From Shewanella putrefaciens (GTDB lineage Bacteria > Pseudomonadota > Gammaproteobacteria > Enterobacterales > Shewanellaceae), in contig NZ_CP066370.1 in NCBI RefSeq assembly GCF_016406325.1, positions 2,790,001 through 2,854,000 of the forward strand: a stretch of DNA of 64,000 nt. Reading direction: 5' to 3'. The position numbers were made by a program, and so were the translations under genes. This document shows positions 2,699 to 62,630 of this stretch, piece by piece. Every line of letters starts with the position of its first letter. The stretch's first letter is position 1. A model generated the notes under the pieces. The model did no database searches. It saw only the letters and a program-made list of their open reading frames with translations, and had not been told where the DNA came from.

Positions 2699-3826
<1,128 letters not shown>

Positions 3827-3877: not shown

Positions 3878-3925
3878 TTGATTAACAATAGAGATAGGGA
3901 CGGATCTAAAAGGTTCAACCCTATA

Positions 3926-3960
3926 GATAAAAATTGCCGCTCAAACTCATTTGGGCGGCT
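3926..3960 (-). terminator. Hairpin terminator or attenuator after queA
   Basis: A 10-bp stem with one G-U pair (3936-3945 with 3950-3959) lies 22 bases past the queA stop and is followed on the minus strand by a U-rich run. It separates queA from the downstream tgt-yajC-secDF genes, so readthrough would be partial. Confidence 0.7.
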
Positions 3961-3981
3961 ATTTTAAAACAAAATCGTCGT

Positions 3982-5019
3982 TTAGTGGGCTTTTTTCGTC
4001 ACAAACATGGCATCGCCATAGCTAAAGAAGCGATATTTTTGCGTGATAGCATGTTGATACGCCGCCATCACATGATCAAAACCCGCAAAAGCACTGACTA
4101 ACATAATCAAAGTTGATTCCGGCAGATGGAAATTTGTCACCATGGCATCAACCACTTGGAATTGATAACCAGGGTAAATAAAGATATCGGTATCGCCACT
4201 AAAGGCTTTGAGTTCGCCAAGGCTTGCGCGCGCCGCACTCTCGAGTGAACGCACAGAAGTCGTACCGACTGCAACCACACGTTTACCCGCCGCTTTAGTT
4301 TGCGCGATTAAATCGATTACATCCTGCGGCACATTCGCCCACTCGGAATGCATTTTGTGCTCAACAATGGTATCGACACGTACAGGCTGAAATGTTCCCG
4401 CGCCCACATGCAAAGTCACAAAGGCAATATTGACGCCCTTGGCTTTTAATGCATCGAGCATGGCATCGTCAAAATGTAAACCCGCCGTTGGCGCTGCTAC
4501 TGCACCGGGGTTTTGGTTATAGACCGTTTGATAGCGCTCTTTGTCGGCATCTTCATCGGGTCTATCAATATAGGGAGGCAAAGGCATGTGCCCTACTGCT
4601 TCAAGCACCTCTAGAATGGTCAGCTCGGATAACAGCTCAAGTTCAAACAAAGTATCGTGACGGGCGACCATCTTCATTTGATAGCCACCATCGAGATGGA
4701 TTAACGAATCGACTTTCGGGGATTTAGAGCTGCGAACATGGGCAAGGATCCGCTTATCATCGAGCATACGCTCAACTAAAATTTCTAACTTGCCGCCACT
4801 GGCCTTTTGGCCAAACATACGCGCGGGGATCACACGGGTATTGTTGAACACCATTAAATCGCCTGGATTTATCATTTCCAGCAGATCAGTAAACTGTTTG
4901 TCGCCTAACGCACCAGAGTTGCCGTCTAACGTTAACAGACGGGATGCATTACGCTGCGCCATAGGATAACGAGCGATCAGCTCATCGGGGAGATCGAAAG
5001 AAAAGTCTGCAACGCGCAT
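3982..5019 (-). CDS. queA: S-adenosylmethionine:tRNA ribosyltransferase-isomerase QueA
   Basis: Transfers the ribosyl part of SAM to preQ1 in tRNA, giving epoxyqueuosine. I place the start at 5019 ([19 protein letters not shown]), which matches the family N-terminus; the frame is open for 20 more codons upstream but that part has no family similarity. The 345 residues match the usual length. Typical blocks are [24 protein letters not shown], and PTAGLHFD followed by [14 protein letters not shown]. It precedes tgt, as in enteric bacteria. Confidence 0.96.
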
Positions 5020-55232: not shown

Positions 55233-56018
55233 ATGAAATCCTATTTAACACCTTTGGCGCTGCTAGTGAGTTCAGTATTCTCGACAGTGGCTTATGCCGA
55301 AACTCAGCTGTTTGTAACAACCTCCTCGACTCAAGATGCACAACTGCATATCGTTTATCCTACTGGCATTCGTATTGGGCAAGCAGTGCAAGATGGATTA
55401 CAACAACTGCCTCTCTATAATAAAACGAATAACAAAGAGGTTATGCCTATTTACTGGTTAGGCGCAGCCTTAGTGGATCTTGAAAATACCGCACTATTAG
55501 AAACTAAACGCCAACAAGTACTCTCTCAGCTCGCGCAGATGGGAGAAGCTACGAATGATAGTCGCTACATTACTAAGCTTGCCCAATTAGCGCAGTTTTT
55601 ACGTGGCATTAAGCTGGGGCAGCGAGTGATGCAACCCTTAGATATTGATGCGATTCGTATTACCGAGTCTTATAACGCCATTATCGAGGGTAAATATCAA
55701 CTCGTTCTCCCCCCTCGTCCCAGCACGATTACACTTGTTGGCGCTGTCACTCAAACAGGCAATATGCCATGGCAGAGCCAAACAAGCAGTAAAGATTACC
55801 TAAAACAAGCAGGTTTACTCGAGAACGCAGAAACCAGCTTTGTTTGGATTATTCAACCCGATGGCAACGCAATTAGACAACCTATCGCCTATTGGAATTA
55901 CCAAGCACAGGATATCGCCCCTGGTGCAACACTTTTTGTTGAGTTTTCAAGCCTATTTGATGGCTACGCCAATTTAAATGAAAACATCATTGAATTACTC
56001 AAGAATCGGACTCTGTAA
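55233..56018 (+). CDS. yjbG: YjbG/GfcC-family periplasmic protein
   Basis: The 261 residues have a signal peptide (ending VAYA at about 22). GfcC-type features include two beta-grasp-like domains (GIRIGQAVQDGLQ; STITLVGAVTQTGNMPWQ, resembling the SLBB fold of Wza) and a C-terminal helix. It starts behind a clear GGAG site, and its stop overlaps the yjbH start by one base. Confidence 0.9.
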   Translation: MKSYLTPLALLVSSVFSTVAYAETQLFVTTSSTQDAQLHIVYPTGIRIGQAVQDGLQQLPLYNKTNNKEVMPIYWLGAALVDLENTALLETKRQQVLSQLAQMGEATNDSRYITKLAQLAQFLRGIKLGQRVMQPLDIDAIRITESYNAIIEGKYQLVLPPRPSTITLVGAVTQTGNMPWQSQTSSKDYLKQAGLLENAETSFVWIIQPDGNAIRQPIAYWNYQAQDIAPGATLFVEFSSLFDGYANLNENIIELLKNRTL

Positions 56019-58384
56019 TGAAAAAGCCTAGCCATTCCATCCATACCTTAGGCCGTTTATCTGCGCTTTCGCTGGCACTCTTGCCACTGTTACATGCCTC
56101 CGCTGATGAATTTGCTTATCCAACGCTGTTACCCTCGCAATCGGATTTTGGTGGCGTTGGCTTAATGCAAATGCCCACAGGTCGCATGGCCGCTGAGGGT
56201 GAATTTAATTTTTCGACCACATATAACGATGAATATCAACACTATACTGCATCAGTGCAATTGTTTCCTTGGTTTGAAACCACAGTACGATACACCTTAG
56301 TGCACGACTTGCTTTATAGCAACGATCCCAATTTTAGTGGTAACACTAAATACACGGATAAAGGCATAGACTTTAAAGTCCGGCTACTTGAAGAAAGTTA
56401 CTGGCTACCAGAAACATCTATCGGTGTACGTGACTTTGGCGGCACAGGATTATTTGATGGCGAATTTATTGCCGCCACAAAAAGAGTCGGCCCATTAGAT
56501 TTTACGCTGGGTATTGGCTGGGGCTATATCGGAAATAGCGGTAATTTAACCTCGGATAAAAAAGATCTTAACTATAACTGTGACCGAGACACTTCCTATG
56601 GTGGTAAGGGCGGTGAAGTCGATTATCAGCGTTGGTTTAAAGGCTGTGCAGCACTCTTTGGTGGTGTGGAATACCAAACCCCTTGGGATCCCCTTAGGGT
56701 AAAAGTGGAATATGACGCCAACGATTACGAGTCTGACTTTCCCGTCGTACGGGGCGGTATAGATATGACTCAGGACAGCAAGTTTAACTACGGCTTACTG
56801 TATCGTTTTGGTAACTGGGGAGATCTGCATTTAAGCTATGAGCGCGGTAATACTTGGACGCTCGGCTTTAGCTTGCAGACGAACTTTAATACCTTAACGC
56901 AAATTAAACGCGATCCTGCTGCGGCTAAATATAAACCGCTACCCGCAGCACCTATGACCCAAGCGCAATTAGCACAGACGGAAGATACCCCATCAAGCGT
57001 AGCCTCAATTGATACTGCTTCATATCAAGAGAGCAATACGGACAACATTCAAGCAGATACGGCCCTAAACGTTGATAGCACAGTGAATACTGCATCTCTA
57101 TCAACCGCTGCAACAGAAACGACTGACTGGAATAAGGTTGCGCAGGATCTGCAACGAATTGCAGGCTATAACAATGCAAAAATTTATCTTGCAGCAGATA
57201 GAATCACAGTTGTTGGTGAACAGACTAAGTTTCGCGATAGAAGCGAGGCTCACCACAGAGCAGCGACAATACTCGCCAACAATAGCGCCCTATCCCAAAT
57301 TAAAGAATATCGTCTGATTGAAACCCATTACAGTCAACCGATTACAGAAACCCGTATCGATGCTGAAAAATTTGCCAAAGTGGCCAATTTTGCATATCTC
57401 AACGCAAAAGTGAGTGATGCAAGCCAAGTCAGTGTACCGAGTGCCCCCCAAGGCACTCTCGTGACCCAAACAAACACAGACTGGCTAGACAAACTGGGAT
57501 TTGATGTTTCTCCCACTATGGTGCAATCCTTCGGAGGCTCTGAAGGCTTCTATATGTTTAATATTGGCGTAACGGGTAGCGCAAATTATAAGTTTACCGA
57601 TAACTTTGAATTTGGCGGTTCTCTTTACCTCAACTTATACGATAACTACGATAAGTTTTTATACGATGTGCCACCAGATGGTACTGACTTAAAACGTGTT
57701 AGAACGCTGATCCGTCAATACGTTCATGATAACCCTGTAAGGATGAATAACCTTCAACTCACTTGGATGGACAATCTTAGCGATAATGTCTCCTACCAAG
57801 CCTATGGTGGTTATTTAGAGATGATGTATGGCGGTGTCGGAACCGAATTTATGTATCGCCCACTCAATAGTCAATGGGCCTTTGGTATCGATGTCAACTA
57901 TGTAAAACAACGGGATCCAGACAATATGTTTGGTTTCTTTAAAGACGAACATCAGTTTGACCCTCTCATCGGCCGAGCCTATAGAGTACAAACAGGCGCA
58001 ATGACTGGGCATGCTACGGTTTATTATCAACCCGAGTGGTTCCCTAATACTTTACTCAGGGTAAGTGCTGGACAATATCTCACTGAAGATAAAGGTGTCA
58101 CCGTTGATTTATCAAAACAATTTGATAGCGGAGTGATTGTAGGGGCCTTTGCCACTAAAACAAACCTATCTGCAGATGAGTATGGTGAAGGCAGTTTTAC
58201 CAAAGGCTTCTATATCTCGGTTCCATTTGATCTGATGACCATTAAGTCAACTCACAGTCGTGCTTTCCTCTCTTGGATACCGCTGACGCGAGATGGAGGT
58301 CAAATGCTTGGGCGTAAATATAATCTATTTGATGTTACAGATGCCCGTGCACCTTGGTACACCAAACCGAGCACTGAAAAATAG
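56018..58384 (+). CDS. yjbH: YjbH/GfcD-family outer-membrane lipoprotein or barrel
   Basis: The 788 residues have a signal peptide (LLPLLHASA). The N-terminal domain is diagnostic (FGGVGLMQMPTGRMAAEGEF, then LFPWFETTVRYT), followed by alternating hydrophobic strands typical of an outer-membrane barrel and another barrel-like half after about residue 500 (QSFGGSEGFYMFNIGV). The middle (about 310-480) is a Thr/Ala-rich linker plus a small alpha/beta domain. It is larger than E. coli YjbH (about 700). Last gene of the operon; no Wza, Etp or Etk genes follow. Confidence 0.9.
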   Translation: MKKPSHSIHTLGRLSALSLALLPLLHASADEFAYPTLLPSQSDFGGVGLMQMPTGRMAAEGEFNFSTTYNDEYQHYTASVQLFPWFETTVRYTLVHDLLYSNDPNFSGNTKYTDKGIDFKVRLLEESYWLPETSIGVRDFGGTGLFDGEFIAATKRVGPLDFTLGIGWGYIGNSGNLTSDKKDLNYNCDRDTSYGGKGGEVDYQRWFKGCAALFGGVEYQTPWDPLRVKVEYDANDYESDFPVVRGGIDMTQDSKFNYGLLYRFGNWGDLHLSYERGNTWTLGFSLQTNFNTLTQIKRDPAAAKYKPLPAAPMTQAQLAQTEDTPSSVASIDTASYQESNTDNIQADTALNVDSTVNTASLSTAATETTDWNKVAQDLQRIAGYNNAKIYLAADRITVVGEQTKFRDRSEAHHRAATILANNSALSQIKEYRLIETHYSQPITETRIDAEKFAKVANFAYLNAKVSDASQVSVPSAPQGTLVTQTNTDWLDKLGFDVSPTMVQSFGGSEGFYMFNIGVTGSANYKFTDNFEFGGSLYLNLYDNYDKFLYDVPPDGTDLKRVRTLIRQYVHDNPVRMNNLQLTWMDNLSDNVSYQAYGGYLEMMYGGVGTEFMYRPLNSQWAFGIDVNYVKQRDPDNMFGFFKDEHQFDPLIGRAYRVQTGAMTGHATVYYQPEWFPNTLLRVSAGQYLTEDKGVTVDLSKQFDSGVIVGAFATKTNLSADEYGEGSFTKGFYISVPFDLMTIKSTHSRAFLSWIPLTRDGGQMLGRKYNLFDVTDARAPWYTKPSTEK

Positions 58385-58534: not shown

Positions 58535-58684
58535 GTCATCCTCGCGAACGACTGCATGGATGCAGGAGGTAGAATAACGCAGGAGCAGTTATCGATGAGG
58601 GGATCCAGCTTTTGGCTTTTGAGTTACTCGCTTTTAGAACTCCCAAGGACATTACTGTGGATTCCCGCCTTCGCGGGAATGACG
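58535..58684. repeat. Palindromic repeat unit U1 (with shortened insert)
   Basis: Bounded by GTCATCCTCGCG on the left and CGCGGGAATGACG on the right, which are near-perfect inverted ends. The insert between the left end and GGGGATCC is a shortened version of the 110-bp block seen in other units. Confidence 0.75.
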
Positions 58685-58707
58685 AAGGAGCCTGTGAATA
58701 GCAAAGC

Positions 58708-58810
58708 CGTCATCCTCGCGCATGTGGGGATCCAGCTTTTGGCTTTTGAGTCACTTGGTTTTAAAACACCAAAGACGTTACTGTGGATTCCCGCCTGCGC
58801 GGGAATGACG
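58708..58810. repeat. Palindromic repeat unit U2 (empty form)
   Basis: A 103-bp unit with 13-bp inverted ends, CGTCATCCTCGCG and CGCGGGAATGACG. Each end is half of an internal palindrome (ATCC...GGAT on the left, ATTCCC-N8-GGGAAT on the right). A 23-base linker separates it from U1 and an almost identical one separates it from U3. Confidence 0.82.
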
Positions 58811-58833
58811 AAGGAGCCTGTGAATAACAAAGT

Positions 58834-59410
58834 CGTCATCCTCGCGAACGACTGCATGGTCAAGTTTGTTCCATACAAAATATGACATTCCCACCTTCCA
58901 TGGTGGTCAGATGAAGGAGGTAGAACGCTTTATTAGAAAGAATACAGGGAGCAGTTATCGATGCGGGGATCCAACGATGACGGTGTACCATAAATCTTCC
59001 CACTTGGGATTTTGTGAATTAATCAAATTAATTTTCCACTCACGGCGCCATTTTTTTAGTTGTTTCTCACGACAAATAGCATCGTACATGGAGGCATGAA
59101 CTTCAAAATAAACTAACTGATCGACTTTGTATTTATGGGTAAATCCATCAACAATAGCGTTTTTATGCTGCCATATTCGCTGTTCTAAATGGCTTGTCAC
59201 ACCAATATACAAAGTACCATTAAATTGGCTAGCCATAATGTATACATAGGGTTGCATAATTCATCCTTGAGTAGTGACAATCCATTTATACGTGATTTAA
59301 ATAATAACTCAAAAACTGGATCCCTCCTGTGTAGAAATGGTAGAAGTGCTAGATTCTCACATGTTCTGGAATAAAGAATATGCGTAATTCCCACCAGTGC
59401 GGGAATGACA
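58834..59410. mobile_element. Repeat unit U3 carrying a GIY-YIG nuclease gene
   Basis: Starts with the same left end (CGTCATCCTCGCG) and 110-bp block as other units, and closes with the palindrome ATTCCC-N8-GGGAAT at 59387-59406 followed by GAC. Instead of the usual 60-base spacer it contains the GIY-YIG gene in reverse orientation. The empty units would then be deletion derivatives of this form. That it moves or moved as a unit is inferred. Confidence 0.55.
58955..59257 (-). CDS. Single-domain GIY-YIG nuclease embedded in palindromic repeats
   Basis: A 100-residue GIY-YIG domain: YVYIMA and LYIGVTSHLEQR supply the Tyr pair and catalytic Arg, and AICREKQLKKWRREWK carries the metal-binding Glu; INLINSQNPKWEDL closes the fold. 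This matches the COG2827-type stand-alone group. The ribosome site AAGGAT is well placed. The last residues (GSPHR) and stop are encoded by repeat sequence shared with copies that lack the gene. Intact frame and full motif set suggest a functional enzyme. Target DNA unknown; the flanking palindromes are the obvious candidates. Confidence 0.9.
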   Translation of the reverse strand: MQPYVYIMASQFNGTLYIGVTSHLEQRIWQHKNAIVDGFTHKYKVDQLVYFEVHASMYDAICREKQLKKWRREWKINLINSQNPKWEDLWYTVIVGSPHR

Positions 59411-59425
59411 TAGGGAACACTAAAT

Positions 59426-59641
59426 CGTCATCCTCGCGAACGACTGCATGGTCAAGTTTGTTCCGTACAAAATATGACATTCCCACCTTCCATGGTGGTC
59501 AGACGAAGGAGGTAGAACGCTTTATTAGAAAAAGTGCAGGGAGCTGTTATCGATGCGGGGATCCAGCTTTTAGTTTTTAAGTCACTCGCTTTTAAAACAC
59601 CCAAAGACGTTACTGTGGATTCCCGCCTTCACGGGAATGAC
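59426..59641. repeat. Palindromic repeat unit U4 (with 110-bp block)
   Basis: Left end CGTCATCCTCGCG, then the 110-bp block (about 59439-59555, nearly identical to 58847-58963), the GGGGATCC element, the standard spacer, and the right palindrome at 59619-59638 ending GAATGAC. Confidence 0.78.
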
Positions 59642-59700
59642 ATAAGGCGTTAGATTCAAACCTGCGCGGGAATGACGAAGGAGTCTGTGAATAGCAAAGC

Positions 59701-59803
59701 CGTCATCCTCGCGCATGCGGGGATCCAGCTTTTGGTTTTTAAGTCACTCGCTTTTAAAAAAACAAAGACGTTACTGTGGATTCCCGCCTTCGCGGGAATG
59801 ACA
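59701..59803. repeat. Palindromic repeat unit U5 (empty form)
   Basis: Same 103-bp architecture as U2, preceded by the same linker (AAGGAGTCTGTGAATAGCAA). Right palindrome at 59780-59799. Confidence 0.8.
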
Positions 59804-59972
59804 TAAGGTGCTAGATTCCCACCTTCGCGGGAATTACATAAGGTGCTAGATTCCCACCTGCGTGGGAATGACATAAGGTGCTAAATTCCCACCTTCGCAG
59901 GAATGACGTAAGAGCTAGATTTAAACCTTCGTGGGAACGACGTAGGCGCTAGATTCCAGCCTTAGTGTGAAT
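59780..59972. repeat. Array of six palindromes at 34-35-bp spacing, decaying rightward
   Basis: ATTCCC-N8-GGGAAT palindromes begin at 59780, 59815, 59850, 59885, 59919 and 59953, with a 15-base linker such as GACATAAGGTGCTAG. The first three are perfect, the fourth has one change and the last two are degenerate. Confidence 0.85.
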
Positions 59973-60037
59973 GACAAAGGTTCTGAATTTATGCCTACAT
60001 AGAAATAGCGAGGGATCTTACAATAAGTGCTTTAACT

Positions 60038-61387
60038 TTACTCCTCTGGGAGCTGCATTTCGATTTTTACACCTTGGTTTGGAGCCGAAATAAGCGAGAT
60101 ACGGCCATTAAGTTTTTGAGTGACAAGATTATGAATAATAGACATCCCTAAACCTGTACCACCCGATTGCTTCGCTGTCGTAAAAAAAGGTTCAAAGGCT
60201 CTTGCTTTAATATCATCAGACATTCCAACACCACTATCCTGATAGATGATATTGATAGTAGAACTGGTTTTATCTGCCTCAACGATGATCTGTTTCTCCC
60301 CCGTAAAATTATCAGGGAAACCATGGCGAAAACTATTAGACACTAAATTAGTAAAAATCTGAGCTATCGCCCCTGGGTAAGAATAAAGATAAATACCATC
60401 ATCAACATTAATCGTTAAGCTAATACTTTTTTTACGCATTAAGGGTTTTAATGAGCTAAAAACCTGCAAAATATACGCTTTTAAATTAAATCGTTCCCGC
60501 TCCCAAATAGATTGATCCGCAGCCGTTCGTTTAAAGTTGTGCACTAACTCTGCTGCCCGCGCAAGATTACGATCAACAAGAGACAAGCCGTCTTGCATTG
60601 TAGTCATAAAATTTAAAAATTTTTCCTGATCGAGTTCATTAGATTCAAAGAATCTCTTAAGTAAGGCAAGCTCATCTAAACAATGAGTCACTGACGTCAC
60701 CGCTATCCCTAGAGGGGTATTCACTTCATGGGCAACCCCTGCCACTAAACTGCCTAATGCTGCCATTTTTTCTTTTTCAATCAAATGATTTTGCGTCGCG
60801 CTTAAATGAGCTAAAGCGGCTTCTAGCTCCTGTGTCCGCAGTTCAAGATCTGCATTGACCACTTTTAACTGCCGTTGATAATCTAGACGGTCCCTTGCGC
60901 TTATCGATCGGGCAAATATTTCCGCCAAAGTCGACACAAACGCTTTGTCATCTGGCATCCATTCGCGAGGCTCGCCTTGATGTTCAATACAAATAATCCC
61001 TACCATTTTTCCATGGTATCGTATTGGACTCGTTAAAATGGCGCTGATGTTATTAGTGATAAAATAAGTTGTGGTTAACTCTTGGCTCGCTAAATCCAGT
61101 TGCCTATGATCTAGCACTATCGTTCGCTCGGTATCTAATAAGTCAAAATAATGGGGATATTGCACACGAGCCAGTGTCAAGGTTTGCTCTAATTGGGGAT
61201 GATGGCTCAGATAAAAACACGATATCGATTGCCTATCTTCACTCAATAACCAAATACCTACCCGCTTAACATTCAGCCCTTTACAAACAGAAGATACAAT
61301 CAACTGCGCAGCCACAGTTAAGTCTCCTTTATCAATCAAAGGGGACTGACTAACATCAAATAAAATCCTGTCAAACATGCGTGTCAT
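60038..61387 (-). CDS. GAF-domain sensor histidine kinase
   Basis: Cytoplasmic kinase of 449 residues with no membrane segment. Residues 20-165 are a GAF domain ([25 protein letters not shown]), 170-205 a coiled coil, then the His box [11 protein letters not shown] and ATP-binding boxes [17 protein letters not shown] and GGTGLGMSI. It belongs to the HPK4-like group whose kinases often read small molecules or partner proteins. No response regulator lies next to it, so its partner is unknown. It starts at 61387 behind AGGA. Confidence 0.92.
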
Positions 61388-61760: not shown

Positions 61761-62207
61761 ATGAAACAATCACTTTTAGGTATCGCCCTTTTAGCACTCT
61801 TTACCACTGCATGCACAGATCCTGCGCCTAAACCAACAGACACCACACCAGCCCAAACTGAATCCGCGGCAAATACTCCTACAGGGGATACAAGTCAAAA
61901 CTCACTCGATTGGCCCGGCAATTACGAAGGCGTACTTCCCTGTGCCAGTTGTGAAGGTATTGAAACGCATATCAGCCTAAAGGCCGATAATAGCTTTGAA
62001 CTTAAAAGCATTTATTTAGGCAAAGATGAGAAGATTTTTAAAGTGACAGGTACCGCAGTATGGGATGCGCAAGGGCAAAAAATAACCTTGGCCGATGGTA
62101 CTCAGTATCTCGTTGGTGAGAACCAACTCATCATGCTAGACACTGAAGGTAAACGTATCACTGGCGAATTAGCCACTAATTACGTGCTGAAAAAGAAGAG
62201 CGAATAA
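61761..62207 (+). CDS. nlpE: NlpE-like outer-membrane lipoprotein (N-terminal domain only)
   Basis: NlpE senses surface contact and copper and signals to Cpx in E. coli. The 148 residues have a lipobox (FTTAC, Cys at residue 19), a Pro/Thr linker, and one NlpE N-terminal beta-barrel with the CxxC motif in GVLPCASCEGIETHISL. The C-terminal OB-fold domain of E. coli NlpE is absent, which is common outside enterics. Single gene. Confidence 0.87.
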   Translation: MKQSLLGIALLALFTTACTDPAPKPTDTTPAQTESAANTPTGDTSQNSLDWPGNYEGVLPCASCEGIETHISLKADNSFELKSIYLGKDEKIFKVTGTAVWDAQGQKITLADGTQYLVGENQLIMLDTEGKRITGELATNYVLKKKSE

Positions 62208-62320
62208 GCAGTAATCTCAATCTAGCGTTGGCGATAAATTTTTGTATTCATAATCCCCATATATTACGCGGCATTTTAACTCTGATGCCGCAAGCCATTA
62301 CCGAAACCTTACGCCGCCAT

Positions 62321-62532
62321 ACTCGAGAACGACTGCATGGTCAATTTTGTTCCATACAAAATATGACATTCCCCCCCTCCATGGTGGTCAGATGTAGGAG
62401 GTTGAACGCTTTATTAGAAAGAGTGCAGGGAGCAGTGATCGATGCGGAGATTCAGCTTTTGGCATTTAAGTCACCCACTTTTACCGTACCCAAAGACGTT
62501 ACTGTGGATTCCCGCCTTCGCGGGAATGACGA
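62321..62532. repeat. Palindromic repeat unit U6, left end eroded
   Basis: Carries a diverged copy of the 110-bp block (about 62328-62445), the spacer and the palindrome at 62508-62527. The left end lacks the CGTCAT start. Confidence 0.7.
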
Positions 62533-62630
62533 AGGAGTTAGAGAGTTACTGTGGATTTCCTCCGCCTACGCGGGAATGACGAAGGAGTTAGAGAGTTACT
62601 GTGGATTTCCTCCGCCTACGCGGGAATGAC
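62531..62630. repeat. Perfect 50-bp tandem duplication
   Basis: 62531-62580 and 62581-62630 are identical, each starting GAAGGAGTTAGAGAGTTACT and ending with half of the palindrome (CGCGGGAATGAC). A recent duplication. Confidence 0.95.

Follow-up and report, generated by a model that had tools for sequence, protein, structure and literature searches.

A GIY-YIG nuclease gene between inverted CGTC REPs in Shewanella putrefaciens, a putative mobile REP module

Introduction

Systems in which a small enzyme gene lies between inverted repetitive extragenic palindromes (REPs), while REP pairs without the gene occur in that genome as well, are described as RAYT/REPIN systems or REPtrons (TnpA-REP); their enzyme is a Y1 HUH tyrosine transposase and their tag is GTAG. 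Here, we analyzed a stretch of 64 kb of the Shewanella putrefaciens genome (contig NZ_CP066370.1, positions 2,790,001 to 2,854,000; referred to as the window), which has the same layout with a GIY-YIG nuclease gene (PF01541) and a CGTC tag instead. An earlier reading of these letters without database searches (the sequence-only reading) had drawn the parallel to REPs and RAYTs with a different enzyme. This parallel was borne out: the gene is of the GIY-YIG type, the tag is not GTAG, and a search of the window's genome for Y1_Tnp (PF01797) gave no match. The nuclease-REP unit works like a REPtron but lacks its defining features. Taken together, our results suggest that the nuclease gene and the REP pair around it, with the tags pointing outward, on balance probably form a mobile REP module.

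The palindrome itself belongs to a known family. PMC3898611 defines the neisserial repeat dRS3 as ATTCCC(N8)GGGAAT and tabulates 646-725 copies across seven meningococcal genomes. According to Di Nocera et al. 2013 (PMC3733652), CGTC-1 REPs, which take in dRS3, have a CGTC tag, an 8-bp stem, a 4-nt loop, and mostly a CCA tail, and occur in head-to-head pairs; as of that year, they apparently had no dedicated transposase, and a tyrosine transposase gene with CGTC REPs on its flanks was looked for there and not found. The IS200/IS605 transposases, which are kin of RAYTs, work through single-stranded DNA (ssDNA) intermediates, as stated in PMC6006769. Judged by their sequence, the palindromes of the window are CGTC-1 REPs, or dRS3, and as such already described, although the sequence-only reading had seen here its best candidate for an undescribed system. 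The two have the palindrome, tag, stem, loop, CCA tail, and head-to-head pairs in common, as well as arrays like those of Neisseria; they differ in that a GIY-YIG nuclease gene repeatedly fills the REP pair here.

Two groups of GIY-YIG enzymes are also relevant for comparison. A 2025 study (Nat Commun) reportedly described the protein family under the name Ssn, a site-specific nuclease of Neisseria that binds and cuts ssDNA at a repeat of hundreds of copies and modulates transformation. The resemblance lies in a short stand-alone GIY-YIG protein and in a Neisseria gonorrhoeae homologue that is located in a dRS3 array and that we take to be ssn. The role reported for Ssn is transformation control, and that account is not known to include a mobile REP-nuclease-REP unit that also has empty sites. 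We conclude that the nuclease family has probably already been described as the Ssn type. Free-standing GIY-YIG homing endonucleases of the I-TevI type are similar in that the gene lies at or in its own presumed target; here, however, the target would be a genome-wide palindrome family and not one conserved gene site, and homing would have to be assumed.

Results and Discussion

The nuclease family and its flanking repeats

The nuclease gene (58955..59257, minus strand) is an intact open reading frame (ORF) of 100 aa with a Pfam GIY-YIG match (E=1.8e-16), in agreement with the sequence-only reading, which had called it complete. Using the window protein alone as query against one genome per species, we took the best 80 of 180 relatives as loci for comparison; the nearest named relatives are from Shewanella. 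The Tyr, Arg, Glu, and Asn with catalytic roles in GIY-YIG enzymes correspond to Y17, R27, E64, and N83, and these residues, together with G19 and H31, are invariant in 78/78 proteins (three of the 80 loci, with proteins below 80 aa, were left out).

A motif-free comparison of the 300 bp to the left and right of the gene (shorter in four loci at contig ends; score of at least 16) showed that both sides carry matching repeats in 59 of the 80 loci, which belong to many phyla, compared to 8 of 480 control positions within the same 80 loci. The enrichment that the sequence-only reading had proposed to look for is thus present. The exact palindrome ATTCCC-N8-GGGAAT (class A) is located within 300 bp of the gene in 26 of the 80 loci, on both sides in 17, and just 10 more copies were found in all 80 loci together. 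Class A loci include those of cyanobacteria, Nitrospirae, a Gracilibacterium, Neisseria, and gammaproteobacteria. Among the loci listed, one hairpin often lies 20-40 bp upstream of the start codon, and its inverted partner lies right after the stop codon or overlaps it. By eye, the outer REP ends read mostly GTCAT (also GTCAC and GTCGC) and the inner ends mostly ATCC or ATCT, while the stem-loop is clade-specific. Tight REP-gene-REP units of ~350-410 bp are present in cyanobacteria, a Gracilibacterium, Nitrospirae, and Bradyrhizobium.

In addition to class A, we distinguished class B (ATTCCGG-N10..38-CCGGAAT) and a third class, ACCCCC...GGGGGT; the genome-wide counts below cover classes A and B. 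On the nuclease tree, which was built from few columns and has many weakly supported forks, the repeat class changes 7 times compared to 20.1 times with shuffled labels (50 of 78 rows could be classed). By this measure, repeat class follows nuclease phylogeny.

The association appears specific to this gene in the window's genome, in which the two other GIY-YIG genes, one of them a 610-aa ORF that is presumably uvrC, lack such repeats, with a best flank-repeat score of 8 each compared to 109 for the nuclease gene. Similarity of the window nuclease to UPF0213 BH0048 is weak (E=0.24), and none of the NCBIfam models scored above cut-off. Carriage by phages was rejected, as there were zero homologues among 50,697 phage records at an E value of 1e-8, and a DNA search of Escherichia coli with the nuclease gave no match. 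Plasmid records contained 31 matches. On one plasmid, of Planktothrix (L170:2489-2773), the nuclease gene has a type IIL restriction-modification gene on one side and the DISARM gene drmA on the other.

Repeat type and copy number in genomes with the nuclease

We scanned the 49 genomes from which the nuclease loci for this comparison originate; the loci were picked by the repeat class beside the nuclease, 34 being classed as A or B and the other 15 having other flank types. In the genomes with A-flanked genes (n=20), class A is present in 2-294 copies (median 28) and class B has a median of 0.5. Conversely, class B is present in 24-338 copies in B-flanked genomes (n=14; median 170), and the class A median there is 0.5.

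In Neisseria, a nuclease match, in some cases to a broken copy, was found in 18 of 46 genomes. These 18 have a median of 25 class A copies compared to 2.5 in the 28 genomes without (rank test, p=0.008), and at least 10 copies are present in 13/18 versus 8/28. Ten genomes in which a perfect class A palindrome lies within 300 bp of the nuclease gene have 13-655 copies; the eight whose nuclease gene lacks one within this distance have 0, 0, 1, 3, 6, 19, 37, and 165. At least two kinds of nuclease locus occur in Neisseria (L207-L213 versus L217 and L218), which differ in class A palindromes within 300 bp.

Among 146 genomes of the window's family, the nuclease is present in 6 of the 8 with at least five class A palindromes and in 21 of the 138 others. 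This count supports a link between gene and repeat weakly, because three of the six high-copy carriers have no perfect class A palindrome at the locus, which was read ~1.5 kb to each side, and because the nuclease frame of one of them (G016) is interrupted by a stop. In the family's nuclease loci without class A, mostly other hairpin types adjoin the gene, as judged by eye. The relation between gene presence and repeat number that the sequence-only reading had suggested examining therefore holds in Neisseria and is less clean in the window's family. Neither of the outcomes that it had named as speaking against its proposal, no enrichment and no relation between gene and repeats, was found.

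The copy-rich genomes also bear on the question of whether the REP pairs are moved by another enzyme, a RAYT/Y1 or other transposase, with the nuclease as one of many trapped cargos. A Y1_Tnp match is indeed present in 32 of the 49 nuclease-locus genomes, and the long REP array of Shewanella profunda described below also holds a sequence reading like rfbC. However, 17 of the 49 have no match, among them G168 (315 class B copies), G160 (42 class A copies), and Neisseria sicca (31), although drafts may be incomplete. A RAYT as the mobiliser was rejected for the window's genome and is weakened in these 17. As the repeat type also follows nuclease phylogeny, and as the 2013 survey cited above saw no tyrosine transposase gene between CGTC REPs, we consider a passenger role of the nuclease quite improbable.

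A host function is a far more serious alternative, which we rate only somewhat below an even chance. It would have the nuclease act on dispersed repeats to regulate DNA uptake and recombination, as is reported for Ssn in Neisseria transformation, the gene sitting among marker repeats for co-regulation without being mobile. In line with this, the N. gonorrhoeae homologue (58.5% identical over 94 residues) lies within a dRS3 array, and the repeat clusters of the window's genome lie amid ORFs that read like surface polysaccharide genes (first cluster) and type IV pilus genes (second cluster); a 2009 review likewise reports repeat arrays near surface-protein genes. What such a function does not predict are the tight ~350-410 bp units in the four groups named above, or the differences at a single Bradyrhizobium site to which we turn now. 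A host function can, moreover, be compatible with mobility.

Presence, absence and orientation at orthologous sites

Searching 80 Bradyrhizobium genomes with one nuclease locus and its flanks, we combined the 30 best loci with 9 earlier ones and removed 3 duplicates, which left 36. Eight of them have a single flank (five with a nuclease match) and 28 have both. Among the 28 two-flank loci, 17 have the nuclease (11 on the query strand, once in two pieces, and 6 on the other strand) and 11 lack it; since six of the 28 were retrieved by a nuclease search and the remainder as best matches, 17/28 is not an unbiased frequency. The two orientations correspond to separate nuclease lineages, with a mean identity of 71.6% between them and of 89.1% and 91.1% within them (10 and 6 proteins) and branch supports of 97 and 90. 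Two Rhodopseudomonas relatives are about equidistant from both lineages.

The nuclease-free loci differ among themselves. One has no visible repeat at the site (L197), others have a single palindrome with the outer tag at both ends (L196 and L198, and L200 with an altered left tag), and L193 has a REP pair plus a sequence that reads like a leftover of the beginning of the nuclease. From these sequences, we read the site as having received two independent insertions, followed by losses. The empty-site comparison proposed in the sequence-only reading thus revealed differences in presence, absence, and orientation at one orthologous site. Occupied and empty sites (17 and 11 of the 28) are a further likeness to the homing endonucleases.

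Single palindromes with an outer tag at both ends, which might be taken for excision scars, are rare among the palindromes checked: 0/66 of class A and 1/49 of class B in L019-L098, and 2/37 of class B in L177-L206. We therefore rejected such scars as a general feature. Three loci (L190, L201, and L203) have a different REP pair at the Bradyrhizobium intergenic site, which reads as GTAG-tagged. As other species carry the CGTC unit there, the site, located behind a terminator, may be a hot spot in general.

In Shewanella, a nuclease 91-92% identical to that of the window is found in S. profunda (G121) and Shewanella CG12 (G077) on the far side of an NlpE-like gene (61761-62207), ~0.45 and 0.9 kb past the aligned part; the corresponding side in the window is occupied by a gene-free unit (62315-62542). 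At the window's nuclease site, S. profunda has the long nuclease-free REP array interrupted by the rfbC-like sequence. Two other relatives (G054 and G097), in which both flanking genes are present, have neither nuclease nor perfect palindrome at the site. In Rhizobium, a REP pair is absent from one lineage with untidy ends, and this difference was not used as an empty site because its ends are not clean. The neighbourhood of Rhizobium CIAT894 gave no empty-site comparison, as records ranked below the query's own share one flank only. Behind the nuclease gene, Rhizobium plasmids have large REP pairs tagged CTCAT instead of GTCAT (L167, ~2973-3107 and 3233-3368), one of which is absent in the related lineage L173.

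Ordinary homologous recombination between inert, clustered repeats could also produce gain, loss, and inversion of units. The arrays of the window and of S. profunda are long and mosaic, and the Rhizobium difference has untidy ends, both of which would fit. On the other hand, many of the 80 loci contain no perfect palindrome further than 300 bp from the gene, and the repeat-free L197 together with the nuclease lineages in opposite directions suggests insertion beyond exchange. We regard recombination as the sole explanation as unlikely. The same two lineages and the gene-free units at one site are what the host function discussed above leaves unpredicted.

As possible targets of insertion, we examined hairpin-forming sites in 54 units, of which seven were set aside because their automatic boundary was not a REP by eye and one because of N or short flanks. 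Complementary flanks around the unit were clear in 5 of the remaining 46 (L070, L094, L030, L042, and L023), compared to 1.2 expected. In L070 (~3900-4400), the unit is centred in a perfect palindrome with arms of at least 30 bp, which may be target or part of the element.

Repeat units of the window

An approximate search of the window for ATTCCC-N8-GGGAAT with up to two mismatches gave 17 matches compared to 2.3 expected, a number reached in 0/100 shuffles. Eight palindromes are perfect; seven of these lie within 58661-59869 (including 58661..58680, plus strand, as for all repeat features below) and the eighth at 62508. The whole 4.39-Mb genome contains 17 perfect copies, 13 of them inside the 35 kb surrounding the nuclease gene. 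The repeats around the gene form a tract of 1.6 kb between ORF 56018-58384, which reads like a polysaccharide outer-membrane protein, and ORF 60038-61387, which reads like a histidine kinase.

Two inverted hairpins with outward CGTC tags make up the basic unit of 103 bp (58708..58810 and 59701..59803). The window REPs fit CGTC-1 in their CGTC (or TGTC) end tag, their CCA tail, and these head-to-head 103-bp pairs. The CGTC-1 REP stem starts with AT and the typed consensus folds into an 8-bp stem with a 4-nt loop, while the diverged copies 58834-58860 and 59384-59410 fold less well. As ssDNA, 58708-58810 folds into one long hairpin (z -4.1). Both empty units reported in the sequence-only reading are therefore real, and their 13-bp inverted ends match at 11/13 and 10/13 positions; on the gene-containing unit (58834-59410), for which such ends had also been reported, the match is weaker at just 9/13. 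The block-containing pair exists as well, carries its block in the left REP, and extends from 59426 to 59642 instead of ending at 59641.

That the gene-containing unit spans 58834-59410 was upheld in part: the gene does lie within repeats, but blastn aligns the window with the S. profunda nuclease unit over 58961-59324 only. In the left CGTC REP (58834..58973), an inserted block of ~110 bp separates the outer half (58834-58850) from the inner one (~58961-58973), and an unsplit counterpart can be read in S. profunda (L163). On the right, the alignment ends in a REP remnant (59316..59324) with the inner end CTGGATCCC. Read this way, the unit looks decayed, with its left REP split and its right REP cut off after 59324, and the perfect palindrome adjoining it at 59387..59406 is probably a neighbour outside the unit proper. 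The last codons and the stop of the nuclease gene consist of repeat sequence, as had been noted, which recurs gene-free at 59547 (3/24 mismatches) and 58589 (4/24).

The block of ~110 bp occupies the identical point within the left REP at 58851-58960, ~59443-59550, and ~62325-62440, with more copies in L163 and a shorter form at ~58551-58595; it looks like a nested repeat in its own right. Further features are an array of 33-nt REP-bearing repeats with a spacing of 34-35 bp (59806..59976, family D1) and, downstream of the NlpE-like gene, the REP pair that carries the block but no gene (62315..62542). The second cluster of the genome contains four perfect palindromes (C1:3836112-3844691, L160:4113-12691) amid ORFs that read like pilA, pilB, pilC, pilD, and coaE. 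This location recalls that of dRS3 near Neisseria pilin genes.

A possible mechanism and its standing

The following sequence of events would account for these data. The nuclease would recognize the hairpin of its own REP type and cut REPs while they are single-stranded, that is, on the lagging strand, during transformation, or in extruded hairpins. When the cut DNA is then repaired or recombined, the REP-bounded segment would be copied or moved, with or without the gene, to other REPs or to hairpin-forming sites, and gene-free REP pairs would represent non-autonomous derivatives of the nuclease unit. We are confident that the unit is a module with REP recognition; that it is mobile as a unit appears likely, and the nuclease probably helps a large, long-orphaned repeat family to spread. 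A homing-like route is more tentative, with somewhat less than even odds in our estimation. Such cut-and-repair is nevertheless likelier than true transposition, because GIY-YIG enzymes are hydrolytic and have no known strand-transfer or joining activity. The sequence-only reading had left it open whether the enzyme spreads or maintains the palindromes that it recognizes; spreading is favoured over mere maintenance because presence, absence, and orientation differ at one site, whereas copy-rich genomes without a detected gene speak against it.

Several points weigh against a mobile, REP-recognizing module. Cleavage and movement are deduced from sequence. The flank test failed in 21 of the 80 loci. 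Repeat type and flank type diverge in some genomes: G166, G174, and G175 are B-flanked yet have 60-115 class A copies, while, on the A-flanked side, G151 has 32 class B matches, with a class B-like hairpin also lying upstream of the gene, and G155 has 81, the listed sequences of which resemble a different family. Repeats are also numerous in several genomes in which the nuclease gene was not detected, namely G293 (249 copies), G311 (140), and G292 (102) in Neisseria and G040 (7) and G102 (5) in the window's family. In Neisseria G299, 165 copies accompany a nuclease without class A flanks, and the three high-copy carriers mentioned above (G005, G016, and G023) have zero perfect class A palindromes in a nuclease locus of ~3.3 kb. 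At the Bradyrhizobium site, the selection of loci adds to this, and breakpoints were resolved to the species level and are not base-exact. Recombination between repeat arrays could explain the difference in nuclease position in Shewanella, and hairpin-forming sites as targets are a hint from just 5/46 units.

The palindrome family is known, and in view of what is reported for Ssn, REP recognition may be as well. A mobile REP-nuclease-REP module across phyla is perhaps new as far as the literature searched shows: among the matches listed, mainly from openly licensed papers, none linked nucleases of the GIY-YIG type with REPs or with dRS3 or CGTC repeats, which does not prove absence. We see about an even chance that the GIY-YIG family provides the missing dedicated enzymes of a CGTC/GTCAT REP superfamily, in which a hairpin-recognizing nuclease and not a transposase spreads REP-bounded units, each nuclease clade coevolves with its own hairpin, and gene-free pairs are non-autonomous offspring.

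CGTC REPs are widespread in bacteria and, according to PMC3733652, had no assigned mobilizing enzyme in 2013. The question of such an enzyme is now directly testable, because each clade provides its own pair of enzyme and hairpin together with mismatched controls. If the proposed role is true, a nuclease that reportedly acts on transforming DNA would be linked to how the repeats that it targets arose.
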